64,000 nt of DNA from Leptolyngbya sp. BL0902. Its GTDB lineage: Bacteria > Cyanobacteriota > Cyanobacteriia > Phormidesmidales > Phormidesmidaceae. Positions 23,214 through 60,983 of this stretch are shown here, piece after piece. Position numbers and translations under genes: made by a program. How positions within the stretch are numbered: the first letter of the stretch is position 1; each line of letters starts with the position of its first letter. Where the stretch lies: NCBI RefSeq assembly GCF_016403105.1, contig NZ_CP046155.1, positions 3,749,906-3,813,905 on the forward strand, given 5' to 3'. The notes beneath the pieces were generated by a model. It made no database searches. It saw only the letters and a list, made by a program, of their open reading frames with translations, and was not told the origin of the DNA.

Positions 23214-23429
23214 TTGGTTGACGTTGTCGCCAAAATAGAGGCAACCGAATCACCCTCAGAGGACGCTCTACCATGCCCGAGCGATACGAGCCCCCCCGTC
23301 TGCTTGCCCGCTGAATCAGAGTCGGTGGGCACGCCTGCCCCACCCAAATCGCCAACGTCTAATTTGTGTGGTCAGCCAGATGTTGGAGCAGCACCTGAGC
23401 GCCCAATCCAAGCCGGAGGTGCCTCATGA
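23214..23429 (+). CDS. Small Ser/Pro-rich ORF translationally coupled to the recombinase
   Basis: This 71-codon frame from TTG 23214 encodes an acidic, Ser/Pro-rich peptide (ATESPSEDALPCPSDTSPPV) that I do not recognise. Its TGA overlaps the ATG of the recombinase (ATGA at 23426-23429). A strong GGAGG precedes that junction and lies within the last codons of this frame. The overlap suggests a translated partner or leader peptide, but composition alone is not convincing and no ribosome binding site is clear for the TTG. It could be a non-coding leader. Confidence 0.35.
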   Translation: MVDVVAKIEATESPSEDALPCPSDTSPPVCLPAESESVGTPAPPKSPTSNLCGQPDVGAAPERPIQAGGAS

Positions 23430-25567
23430 CTCCTCCCACTAATCCTGGATTCGGGCTGTCAGACAAAATTCAATGGCCGCATCTCGACCGATTAGCTGTG
23501 GTGTATGTGCGCCAGTCCACGCTGCAGCAAGTGAGCGACCATCAAGAATCCACCCGTTTACAATATGGCTTAGTAACGCGAGCCGAAGCGCTGGGCTGGC
23601 CCCCTGAGCGCATCCTCACCATTGACGAAGATTTAGGGAAATCCGGCAGTAGCGCGGCAGGGCGTTCGGGCTTCCAACGACTGGTCAGCGAAGTGGGGCT
23701 GAACCACGTCGGTTTGATTCTGGGCGTTGAGATGTCGCGGTTGGCCCGCTCCTGCAAGGACTGGCATCAGCTGCTGGAAATCTGTGCCCTCTTCGGCACG
23801 TTGATAGCGGATCTCGATGGCATCTACGACCCGAGCCAGTACAACGACCGGTTGCTGTTGGGCTTAAAAGGCACCATGAGTGAAGCCGAATTACATCTCC
23901 TGAAACAACGGATGATGCAGGGAAAACGGACAAAGGCCCAACGCGGCGAGCTGGGGTTCAACGTTCCCATTGGCTACATTTGTCGTCCATCGGGGGAAGT
24001 GCAATTTGACCCGGATGAGCAGGTGCGTCAGGTGGTGCGATTAATCTTCCGCAAATTTGAGGAATTAGGCACCCTCAATGCCACCCTACGGTATTTGGTC
24101 AGTCATGACATTCAAGTGGGGGTGCGGGTGTTGTATGGCCTCGACAAAGGGGAGTTGCAGTGGCGACGTCCGAATCGCCCGACCTTACAAAATCTGCTAA
24201 AAAATCCCGCCTATGCCGGAGCCTATGCCTACGGACGTAAACAAGTCGATGCCCGCAGAAAGCAAGCCGGTCGTCCCCATACTGGCTGTGTCGTCAAACC
24301 CCCTGAAGAGTGGCTGGTCTTAATCCAAGACCACCACCCGGCCTACATTTCCTGGGAGCAGTACCAGCGGAATGGGGCTCAACTGAAAGCGAATCGGAAT
24401 CGAGCGGATGAACTCGGCCATGCGCGAGAGGGAGTGGGTCTTTTGAGTGGGCTTCTGGTGTGTGGGCGATGTGGATGCCGTCTGCAGGTTCAATATCACC
24501 GGGCAGGCGGCTATCACCGCTATGTCTGCAATCGGGCGATGAGCGATTATGGGGGCCAATTTTGCCAGCACGTGTCGGGCACCTGTCTGGATGAGTATGT
24601 CACGGGACAAGTGCTGCGCGCCTTGGAGCCGGCTGCTTTAGACCTTTCCTTGGCGGCTGCCGCTCATCTGGAGCAAGACCGAGCCGAGCTTGATATTCTA
24701 TGGCAACAGCGATTGGAGCGGGCTCAGTTCGAAGCCGATAGAGCCCAGCGGCATTACCAGTTCGTTGAGCCGGAAAATCGCTTAGTCGCCCGACAACTGG
24801 CTCAAGCATGGGAAGCTGCATTGCAGGCTCAGCACACCCTGCGGGACGACTACCAGCGGTTTTGTCATGACCAACCGAAAGGCCTCTCGCCTGACGAAAA
24901 GCAGCAGATTCAGCAACTCGCAGACAGCCTGCCCCTACTCTGGGCCGCGCCCACGACCACGATGGCGCAACGCAAAGACGTGATTCGACAGATGATTGAC
25001 GGCATCCTCATGACCGTGGTGGGCGATACCGAACAGGTACAGGTGACGATTAAATGGGCGGGCGGCGATTCGAGTCAGGCTCAGATCACTCGCCCGGTCG
25101 CCAAATGGACTCAACTGAGTGACTACCCGCAACTGTGTCAACGGCTTGAACAACTGACCCAGGCCAATCTCACCACCCGCGACATCATTGACTGCTTGCA
25201 TCAAGACGGGTTTCGCCCCCCAAAGCGTCGTCAAACCTTCAATCCAGAAATGGTGCAAACGTTAATTCGCAAGCTTGGCTTAAGATCTCACGCAGCGACT
25301 CCGGCAAAAGCACCGTTGCCGCCCCCCGAATGGTGGTTGCCGGACTTGGCTGCCAAACTGGACATGCCGACGATGACCCTCTATAACTGGGTGCAACGAG
25401 GGTGGGTGAAGGCCAGACAACCGGCAGAACCCCCTAAACACTGGATCATTTGGGCCGATGAGGCCGAACTGGAACGCCTCAGAACTCACCGTCAATGCCC
25501 CACCCGGGAGATCCTCAGGCAACGCTGGCAAGGGGAAACACCCAGCATTGCTTGTCCTCCTGACTAG
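23426..25567 (+). CDS. Large serine recombinase (resolvase/invertase superfamily)
   Basis: The 713-residue protein has a resolvase catalytic domain (about 20-165) with the nucleophile S31 in AVVYVRQSTLQQ, an arginine in STRLQYGL, and GVEMSRLARSCKDW. A recombinase DNA-binding domain follows (about 185-310; GYICRPSGEVQFDPDEQVRQ, LLKNPAYAGAYAYGRK), then a zinc ribbon (about 340-400; CGRCGCRL and later Cys pairs) and a long helical region. A C-terminal MerR-like helix-turn-helix (LPDLAAKLDMPTMTLYNWVQRG, about 635-660) is unusual for phage integrases. The start has GGAGG 6 nt upstream. It is intact and presumably catalyses insertion and excision of the element in which it lies. No separate excisionase gene is visible; the MerR-like tail or the small upstream ORF could play that part. 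Confidence 0.93.
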   Translation: MTPPTNPGFGLSDKIQWPHLDRLAVVYVRQSTLQQVSDHQESTRLQYGLVTRAEALGWPPERILTIDEDLGKSGSSAAGRSGFQRLVSEVGLNHVGLILGVEMSRLARSCKDWHQLLEICALFGTLIADLDGIYDPSQYNDRLLLGLKGTMSEAELHLLKQRMMQGKRTKAQRGELGFNVPIGYICRPSGEVQFDPDEQVRQVVRLIFRKFEELGTLNATLRYLVSHDIQVGVRVLYGLDKGELQWRRPNRPTLQNLLKNPAYAGAYAYGRKQVDARRKQAGRPHTGCVVKPPEEWLVLIQDHHPAYISWEQYQRNGAQLKANRNRADELGHAREGVGLLSGLLVCGRCGCRLQVQYHRAGGYHRYVCNRAMSDYGGQFCQHVSGTCLDEYVTGQVLRALEPAALDLSLAAAAHLEQDRAELDILWQQRLERAQFEADRAQRHYQFVEPENRLVARQLAQAWEAALQAQHTLRDDYQRFCHDQPKGLSPDEKQQIQQLADSLPLLWAAPTTTMAQRKDVIRQMIDGILMTVVGDTEQVQVTIKWAGGDSSQAQITRPVAKWTQLSDYPQLCQRLEQLTQANLTTRDIIDCLHQDGFRPPKRRQTFNPEMVQTLIRKLGLRSHAATPAKAPLPPPEWWLPDLAAKLDMPTMTLYNWVQRGWVKARQPAEPPKHWIIWADEAELERLRTHRQCPTREILRQRWQGETPSIACPPD

Positions 25568-25671
25568 ACGGTTTGACCGGTATAAACTCAAATTTTTGAC
25601 TGGAGAAGACCCATGGCAAAGCACACACCTTCGATTCCACCACCTCAGCATCCGCCTGAAGATGACTATGG

Positions 25672-25692
25672 GGGTATTGAGGCTGGAGTATC
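25672..25692. other. Element arm P' (attachment half-site)
   Basis: Reading toward the crossover on the plus strand, the arm ends in GGCTGGAGTATC before TC. It is the inverted partner of arm P (23137-23157), matching at 15 of 21 positions with both arms abutting the 2-bp core. Confidence 0.7.
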
Positions 25693-26471
25693 TCGATGCC
25701 CCAGCGCTGGCGGTAGTCGGCGAGGGCCGTCTGAGGGGCATGGTCGGTGGCGAGAATCAGGAGTTCGCCATCGGCGAGGCGGGTGGCGATGACGTAGACC
25801 CGTCGGCCCCAGACCCATCGTTTTCCCGATAGAATCCGAGTCTCCCCAGATCTCAGACTGGCGAAGACCCGTTCCCCCGATTGACGAGACTTTCCAGAGC
25901 GGGAACGAATCTGGTCACTATGCCGCAACCGGAGACGGAAGGGCATCGTTTTGGGCAACAGCAGATAACTGCACCACTCCTTGCCCACAAACTCCCGGTC
26001 GCCCGTCAGACACCGCACCTTGGCCTTCGGAAACACCCGCTCAAAGCGCTCCAGCAGGTCAATACGCTCGTCGCTGTTGCTGTTGCCCCGCTTGTCCAGC
26101 ATCGTCCAGAACAGCGGGAAGGCCACCCCTTCATGGACAATCCCCAGCATCAAGATATTGAAATGAACCGCCCCAAACGACCAGGTCGTGCGGTCGAGGC
26201 TCAAGGTCCAGGGTTGAGGAATCTGGCTCCAACTCACCACCGCCCGCGCAATATCGTCAAAATCCACCGGAAACCCCCGCAAAAACCGCGTCAGACGCTT
26301 GTAACTCGACCCCGGTTTGGCCCGGTTGGCAAACACTGACGCCAGTTTGTCTAAGTTCACCGTCTCGACCCGGAACAACGCTACCAGAAACAGGGCCAGG
26401 AAGGTCAGTCGAGCACCATGCCACGGCAGATGAGCACGCAGGGCCCCTTGAAGTCGGTTAATCTGAGTCAT
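25692..26471 (-). pseudogene. IS4-family transposase, N-terminal part (truncated by insertion)
   Basis: The first 260 codons of an IS4-type DDE transposase run from ATG 26471 (MTQINRLQGALRAHLPWHGA). Catalytic D93 (LSLDRTTW) and D158 (LTGDREFVG) are present. The YREK motif begins Y253-RQ-R256-WGI-E260 and is cut within the E260 codon by the recombinase element. Beyond 25692 the frame continues about 58 codons into element DNA before a stop (25515), so any product would be a fusion lacking the C-terminal active-site helix. The K of the motif (K267) is on the other fragment. Confidence 0.92.
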
Positions 26472-59549: not shown

Positions 59550-60410
59550 ATGGGATCACGACTCGCCGCCATTGCCACCGCCTTCGACAACGTCTATAGC
59601 GGCTGGATTTTGTGGAACTTGTTTTTGGCCTTTGTGCCGCTGCTGCTCAGTTTTTGGTTGTTTCGCCCCCGTACCATTCCCCGCCGCTGGCTTCAGGTGG
59701 CCCTCGGCGGAGTGGTATCCATCGGCGTCATTGGGCTTTGGGCCAGAAGACCCGGGGTCTTGATGGACTGGGGCCGCACCCTTGTAGATGCCCTCACCGG
59801 AGACGTCAGTGCCCTGCTGCGGCTGAGTTGGCTAGTGCTGGTGCTGGCGGTGGTGATCGGGCTGTGGCAGTGGGGGCTGAGCCCTAGGAAGACGCGCCGT
59901 CCTTGGCTGTGGTGGCTGGGATTTGTGGTCTTCATGGCCTTTTTGCCCAATGCCCCCTACGTCCTCACCGACATCATTCACCTGATTCGCGGCACCCGCA
60001 GCGACACTATTCCCGCCTGGGTGATTGCCCTCGTCTTTGTGCCTATCCACATCACAGCCATTGCCCTAGGGTTTGAAGCCTACGTGATTTCTATCCTCAA
60101 CGTGGCCTACTACCTGAAACAGCAAGGAGCCAGGGCCTTCATTTTGCCCATGGAGCTAACCATCCACGCCCTCTGCGCCGTTGGCATTTACCTGGGCCGA
60201 TTCATCCGCTTCAATAGCTGGGACTTAGTGACGGATCCCCTCGACGTGCTCACCGACACCCTGAATATCCTCACCTCCCGGCGACCGCTGGCCGTCGTGA
60301 TCGTCACCTTTGGGGTTTTGACCGTGCTCTACTGGCTAATGAAGCAAATCACCCTCGGCCTCAAACTACGCATCCACTACGCCCGTCAAGGCATGGATGC
60401 CCTCGACTAG
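59550..60410 (+). CDS. DUF1361 membrane protein
   Basis: The 286-residue polytopic membrane protein contains the family block FMAFLPNAPYVLTDIIHLIR and a later YLGRFIRFNSWDLVTDP. About eight membrane segments. Function unknown. It follows the TspO-like gene after 122 bp on the same strand. Confidence 0.88.
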   Translation: MGSRLAAIATAFDNVYSGWILWNLFLAFVPLLLSFWLFRPRTIPRRWLQVALGGVVSIGVIGLWARRPGVLMDWGRTLVDALTGDVSALLRLSWLVLVLAVVIGLWQWGLSPRKTRRPWLWWLGFVVFMAFLPNAPYVLTDIIHLIRGTRSDTIPAWVIALVFVPIHITAIALGFEAYVISILNVAYYLKQQGARAFILPMELTIHALCAVGIYLGRFIRFNSWDLVTDPLDVLTDTLNILTSRRPLAVVIVTFGVLTVLYWLMKQITLGLKLRIHYARQGMDALD

Positions 60411-60453
60411 GATTTTGGATCAAGGGCAACCGTCCTAGCCCAAACTGTCCTAG

Positions 60454-60599
60454 CCCAAAACCTGATTGACTGACCAAACTGGCTAAAACCCACATCTGTC
60501 AAAGGGTCAGGAGACCTGACCCCTACATGAACCCAGGACTGTAGGGGCGCAGTTTTCGCGCCCGCCGCAGAATCTTTTGTCAGTCAATCAGGCCCAAAA
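60454..60599. mobile_element. 132-bp MITE with 14-bp terminal inverted repeats
   Basis: The element 60461-60592 has perfect 14-bp terminal inverted repeats (CCTGATTGACTGAC at 60461-60474, its complement at 60579-60592). It is directly flanked on both sides by CCCAAAA (60454-60460 and 60593-60599), a perfect 7-bp target duplication. Two internal hairpins occur: GGGTCAGG/CCTGACCC (60504-60522) and GGGCGC/GCGCCC (60545-60563). No coding capacity, so it must depend on a transposase elsewhere. Confidence 0.83.
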
Positions 60600-60611
60600 C
60601 TGCCCTGGCAC

Positions 60612-60637
60612 AAAAAAGCCAGGAGTTTCCCCCTGGC
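60612..60637 (-). terminator. Terminator of the moaD-like gene
   Basis: On the minus strand a stem GCCAGG/CCTGGC (60618-60637) is followed by six T (complement of A60612-60617), about 70 bp after the stop codon. Confidence 0.8.
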
Positions 60638-60707: not shown

Positions 60708-60983
60708 TTAGCCCCCAGCCACAGCGGGGACAATGCTGACTTCGTCACCATCGTTCAGGACAGTTTCTTTGCCGTCCAAGAACCGAATATCTTCGCTGTT
60801 GACGTAGAAATTTACAAAGCGGCGCAGCTCACCGGAATCGTCGCAGAGGCGGGCTTTGATGCCGGGATAGGTGCTGTCTAGAGCATCCATCAGTTCCACA
60901 ATGTTGCCGCCTGTACATTCGATGGTGGCTTCATTGTTGGTGAACTTTTGCAGCGGGGTGGGAATCAGAACTTTAATGGCCAT
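60708..60983 (-). CDS. MoaD/ThiS-family sulfur-carrier protein
   Basis: The 91-residue ubiquitin-fold protein ends in the di-glycine PAVAGG needed for adenylation and thiocarboxylation. The fold motif [20 protein letters not shown], then [19 protein letters not shown], and [16 protein letters not shown] is standard. It lies downstream of thrC on the same strand with a 198-bp repeat-bearing spacer. Sulfur-carrier proteins next to threonine synthase genes may act in sulfur amino acid synthesis instead of molybdopterin; that role is inference. Confidence 0.92.

Follow-up and report, generated by a model that had tools for sequence, protein, structure and literature searches.

A multicopy type II MITE with 9-bp target duplications in Leptolyngbya sp. 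BL0902 and candidate IS4-type partners in congeneric genomes

The window copy and its boundaries

The window, the whole 64-kb stretch of DNA analyzed here, contains a short MITE between a DUF1361 gene (59550–60410, + strand) and a ThiS-family gene (60708–60983, − strand), both of which point towards the copy. No ORF of at least 60 aa overlaps the block, in agreement with the absence of coding capacity stated in the preliminary description of this locus. A terminator-like hairpin with a T tail is located just outside the MITE (60618–60637, − strand), downstream of the ThiS-family gene. The parts of the window copy are as follows.

60453–60461, no strand: left 9-bp target-site duplication, GCCCAAAAC
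60462–60591, no strand: MITE, 130 bp, without an ORF of at least 60 aa
60462–60474, + strand: left terminal inverted repeat, CTGATTGACTGAC
60504–60522, no strand: internal hairpin 1, 8-bp stem GGGTCAGG/CCTGACCC
60545–60563, no strand: internal hairpin 2, stem GGGCGC/GCGCCC
60579–60591, − strand: right terminal inverted repeat, CTGATTGACTGAC on the minus strand, followed by AAAAG
60592–60600, no strand: right 9-bp target-site duplication, GCCCAAAAC

The element is thus 130 bp long, with perfect 13-bp inverted ends and a perfect 9-bp duplication. The preliminary description gave 132, 14, and 7 bp for these lengths, each of its boundaries lying one base outside the actual one. The letters on which it relied are present exactly as given: CCTGATTGACTGAC is found at 60461–60474, its perfect reverse complement at 60579–60592, and CCCAAAA abuts the pair at 60454–60460 and 60593–60599. 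The apparent 14 + 7 arises because GCCCAAAAC has G as its first letter and C as its last, complementary bases that mimic one extra base of inverted repeat. In the family consensus, the terminal inverted repeats extend to 17 bp. The sequence beyond the left repeat is AAAAC in the consensus and CAAAC in the window copy.

The MITE family and its target duplication

BLAST gave 26 places in the own genome and a model search gave 26 full-span places, with a union of 27. In the model search, 150 of 1374 candidates were scored, and its counts leave out eight opposite-strand matches of the same places and five core-only rows (four places). The ends of 26 copies (without C1:1743611) were placed with end models blind to the flanks. 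Ten copies had no end pair, leaving 16 copies with both ends placed. The flanks of these 16 copies are identical at 119 of 144 positions when 9 bp are compared. The identity is 20/80, 24/96, and 29/112 at 5, 6, and 7 bp, 46/128 and 54/160 at 8 and 10 bp, and 42/176, 45/192, and 52/208 at 11, 12, and 13 bp, respectively; that is, the share of matches is 0.23–0.36 at all lengths from 5 to 13 other than 9, and 23–26% at 5–7 and 11–13. In 11 of the 16 copies, the 9-bp flanks match at 8/9 or better. Among the sibling copies, a match of the flanks is seen at length 9 alone; the duplication is therefore 9 bp, with CTG as the first and CAG as the last bases of the element. A 7-bp duplication is rejected, the flank matches at that length being those of chance. 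One copy (L013) scored 1/9 in the test owing to a damaged right end; GATCACAAC nonetheless flanks it on both sides.

Fourteen own copies diverge by 6.9–21.5% from their consensus. The copies L020, L025, and L028, which are among the most diverged, retain 9/9 duplications, suggesting that part of the divergence probably predates the insertions. Diverged copies with intact duplications would be expected from subfamilies and equally from old copies that relocated. The conservation is 0.895 and 0.857 at the ends and 0.856 in the core (L013 and L018 excluded), and a higher conservation of the ends than of the core is not clearly seen.

An empty site was found for a sibling copy, L016 (C4:64313–64440). 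Its flanks lie 151 bp apart in the own genome and 13 bp apart in two sister genomes, G002 and G021, where the insertion is absent. The duplication of this copy is 6/9. In a second comparison, the flanks of L015 match different contigs in G002. The upstream flank of the window copy is present in 22 congeners, and no empty site for this copy was found among the six inspected: the aligned flank is followed by different sequence in three (L119, L120, and L124), and the flank did not align in L121–L123, which are thus uninformative. In L016 and a copy of opposite orientation in G021 (L155), gene flanks that are 67% similar over 204 bp lie at approximately equal distance from the MITE, possibly representing separate insertions near related genes.

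The element is therefore a MITE, as had been proposed: it is shorter than 500 bp and has no transposase gene, its ends are inverted, the target is duplicated, the copies are numerous and dispersed, and a sibling has an empty site. As for the surroundings of the own-genome copies, of 33 assignable gene sides at 23 loci, 22 are 3' ends facing the copy, according to a rough codon-usage heuristic that missed the ThiS-family gene adjoining the window copy.

Outside the own genome, the MITE was matched in 3 of 25 other same-genus genomes (G002, G014, and G021) and in 4 of 31 more distant ones (G029, G035, G040, and G041), the last being the only one of these four with more than one match listed; 15–17 candidates were scored per genome when more were available, and the copy counts there are lower bounds. 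A unique sequence conserved as a whole block in relatives, the outcome named beforehand as speaking against a MITE, was not found. The 17-base end pattern with at most one mismatch occurs 26, 12, and 102 times in G035, G040, and G041, respectively, and 0 times in the reversed control. In a sample of 13 loci in G041, one of which had no end pair, the flanks match at 65 of 108 positions at 9 bp vs 25 of 84 at 7 bp, single copies ranging from 1/9 to 8/9 at 9 bp. At three of these loci (L181–L183), in a genome of another cyanobacterial family, near-identical ends enclose an unrelated 141-bp core with duplications of 7/9 or 8/9. This observation suggests that it is the ends that are recognized. In G002 and G021, the duplications are weak (59/135 at 9 bp and 46/120 at 8 bp in a test of 16 copies, one without an end pair), which makes much of the family old. 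A 22-base left end of the MITE was also observed in a Coleofasciculus record (L116) and a Spirulina record (L115). The former has a matching right end too, around a different core.

Candidate partner transposons

The preliminary description predicted a same-ended transposase at another place in the genome. A protein search found no intact same-ended IS in the own genome, where two lineage-B-like transposase relics are located (C1:1826158–1826343, 50% identity with three stops, and C3:245–325, 81%), but such elements are present in congeneric genomes. When the own genome and 11 relatives were searched at the protein level, the related transposons with CTG ends fell into three lineages (A, B, and C). 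G002 holds further related transposons without CTG ends. In the same genome, a 1531-bp element (L103) has MITE-like ends and a 309-codon frame, without a 9-bp duplication.

Lineage A has ends CTGACTGCCTGACA and a length of 1313–1315 bp. The own genome contains nine near-full copies, one of which has an internal stop, and one internally deleted copy. The duplications are perfect 9-bp ones in eight of the near-full copies and 7/9 in the other. The near-full IS4-type copies in the own genome end in CTGACTGCCTGAC, two mismatches from the 13-base ends of the window copy. An own-genome IS as the exact partner was rejected, since the ends differ.

Lineage B, with ends CTGRTTGACTGACAAAA, was found in G009 and G025, and its copies with open transposase frames are L110 (G009, 1323 bp), L111, and L112 (both G025, 1321 bp). 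One end of each is CTGGTTGACTGACAAAAC and the other is CTGRTTGACTGACAAAAG (CTCTTTGACTGACAAAAG in L111). The C/G asymmetry between the two ends is common to these three elements and the MITE consensus, and all three have 9/9 duplications. The MITE thus shares its ends with open-frame elements of two congeners. Both ends were placed in seven larger copies of this end type. Three of these have a duplication; L092 and L113 (G025), L087 (G007, with a broken frame), and L102 (G021) have none. In the two genomes with the open-frame elements, the MITE had no match among the 15 candidates scored in each. Lineage C, with ends CTGACTGACTGACACA, was found in G041.

In a short-word BLAST comparison of 16 MITE copies with seven ISs, 176 end matches were to four lineage-B elements, the longest being 19–20 bp, vs 11 to lineage C and one to lineage A (longest 14 bp each). 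The core gave chance-level matches of 10–14 bp (E 0.2–0.85) in the 20 of 30 core matches viewed. The likeness of the MITE to the ISs is limited to the ends, which is the feature of type II MITEs. Formation of the MITE by internal deletion of an IS is unsupported, the similarity stopping at the ends in these 20 of 30 core matches.

Two other ORFs in the window should be mentioned here. A 318-aa ORF (25515–26471, − strand) is weakly similar to the IS4-type transposase (28%, E 1e-5) and has no Pfam match at E 0.001, and a 713-aa ORF (23426–25567, + strand) encodes a large serine recombinase with Resolvase, Recombinase, and zinc-ribbon domains.

The candidate partner transposase matches PF01609 above the gathering cut-off. 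Its best NCBIfam match is the IS4-family model NF033591, with 112 bits, below the cut-off of 152, and a PDB sequence search gave no match at E 1. The ISs have one open frame of 400–425 codons. The D-D-E spacing is about 63 and 102–104 residues (L037, L110, and L104), within D(60–110)D(100–150)E. Lineages A and C have the complete Y(2)R(3)E(6)K signature; in lineage B, the K is replaced by Q. PMC2266710 gives as IS4 hallmarks this signature, the D-D-E spacing, a single ORF, and duplications of about 10 bp, with 9 bp and CT ends in the row for IS10. Compared with the IS4 family and its IS10/IS50-like features as described there, the single frame, the D-D-E spacing, and Y(2)R(3)E in all three lineages are alike, as are K in lineages A and C, the 5'-CT ends, the lengths of the intact copies measured (1313–1334 bp), and the 9-bp duplications (9/9 in L110, L111, and L112 and in eight of the nine lineage-A copies). 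The Q for K in lineage B and the NCBIfam match under the cut-off are unlike that description. Because of these two differences, we name the transposase "IS4-type" and assign no subgroup.

Probable mobilization of the family and other explanations

Very probably, the family is a type II MITE whose copies are mobilized in trans by a transposase of the IS4 type. This interpretation draws on the copy number, the ends, the 9-bp duplication, the empty site of one sibling, and the congeneric IS4-type elements that agree with the MITE in their ends and duplication length. The DDE transposase would act in trans by recognizing the approximately 18-bp ends CTGRTTGACTGACAAAA(C/G), cutting out the MITE, and pasting it into a 9-bp staggered cut, the repair of which would leave the 9-bp duplication. 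The internal hairpins would require no function of their own. Judging from the end sequences, the mover may be the lineage-B transposase or a decayed relative in the own genome, and the cut-and-paste chemistry would be analogous to that in publications on the IS4 family. That the own genome yielded no intact IS with the same ends, and that G009 and G025 had no MITE match, counts against this interpretation. So do the lack of a direct empty site for the window copy, the weak duplications in G002 and G021, the Q for K in lineage B, and the four of seven same-ended larger copies without a duplication.

The mover could instead be a cousin, the lineage-A element, which is present in multiple copies in the own genome and seems to have been active there recently, as its mostly perfect duplications indicate, and which would have to cross-recognize the MITE ends. 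Three MITE copies whose left ends were unplaced (L023, L026, and L033) have right ends CTGACTGGCTGAC, one mismatch from lineage A. However, the lineage-A ends depart from the MITE consensus after base 14 and gave the single 14-bp end match, as compared with 176 matches of up to 20 bp for lineage B, making this an unlikely alternative. Somewhat more doubtful still is a swap of partners, in which an orphan MITE family outlived its own intact IS in the own genome and is now moved by an active cousin IS4-type element with different ends, near-identical ends having captured unrelated cores in other cyanobacterial families. If this is true, the ends, not the element, would be the unit that spreads.

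A further alternative is a static intergenic element under selection, such as a terminator, a small RNA, or a regulatory hairpin. The two internal hairpins noticed in the preliminary description do exist as predicted folds. The DNA fold of the window copy is −29.1 kcal/mol (z −6.0), with none of 200 shuffles as good, and the RNA fold has a z of −5.75. These strong folds result from the inverted ends together with the two hairpins, and a cruciform is a possible form of the predicted structure. The stable fold, the conserved hairpins, the core conserved about as well as the ends, and the frequent 3' ends of flanking genes would agree with a static element. The 9-bp duplications, the dispersed copies, the empty site in two sister genomes, and the same ends on larger ISs are not in accord with it. 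Furthermore, Rfam gave no match at E 1, a promoter scan found none, no terminator-like site lies inside the MITE, and compensatory changes are few (a double change in 3 of 19 pairs). A static origin is thus largely refuted by the duplications and the empty site and is very improbable, while single copies may have a co-opted role. Lastly, a chance inverted repeat beside a chance flanking repeat, for which the short lengths alone speak, is refuted with near certainty by the multicopy family and by simulation: perfect 13-bp inverted repeats spanning 100–170 bp occur at one locus in the window (two overlapping registers, one of which is accompanied by the flanking 9-bp direct repeat), and in ten windows simulated with a first-order Markov model the numbers of matches were 0, 0, 0, 0, 0, 0, 0, 0, 0, and 1.

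Nezha is a cyanobacterial type II MITE. The MITEs of Anabaena sp. 90, also of type II, matched no IS of that genome according to PMC3542288. Like those MITEs as described there, the present family is short and non-coding with inverted ends and a folded core, and its own genome likewise yielded no intact IS with the same ends. In contrast to the descriptions of the Anabaena sp. 90 MITEs and Nezha, same-ended IS4-type elements are found here in congeneric genomes, and a 9-bp duplication is shown. No Nodosilinea MITE or IS4-linked cyanobacterial MITE is named in the titles and abstract openings of the literature searched. Within these searches the family is new, while its kind is ordinary and well known. 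A guess from a single sequence has become a MITE family whose boundaries are correct, whose duplication length has been measured, and for which a type of partner has been identified. Since the congeners supply a candidate partner, the identity of the transposase that moves the MITE is directly testable.
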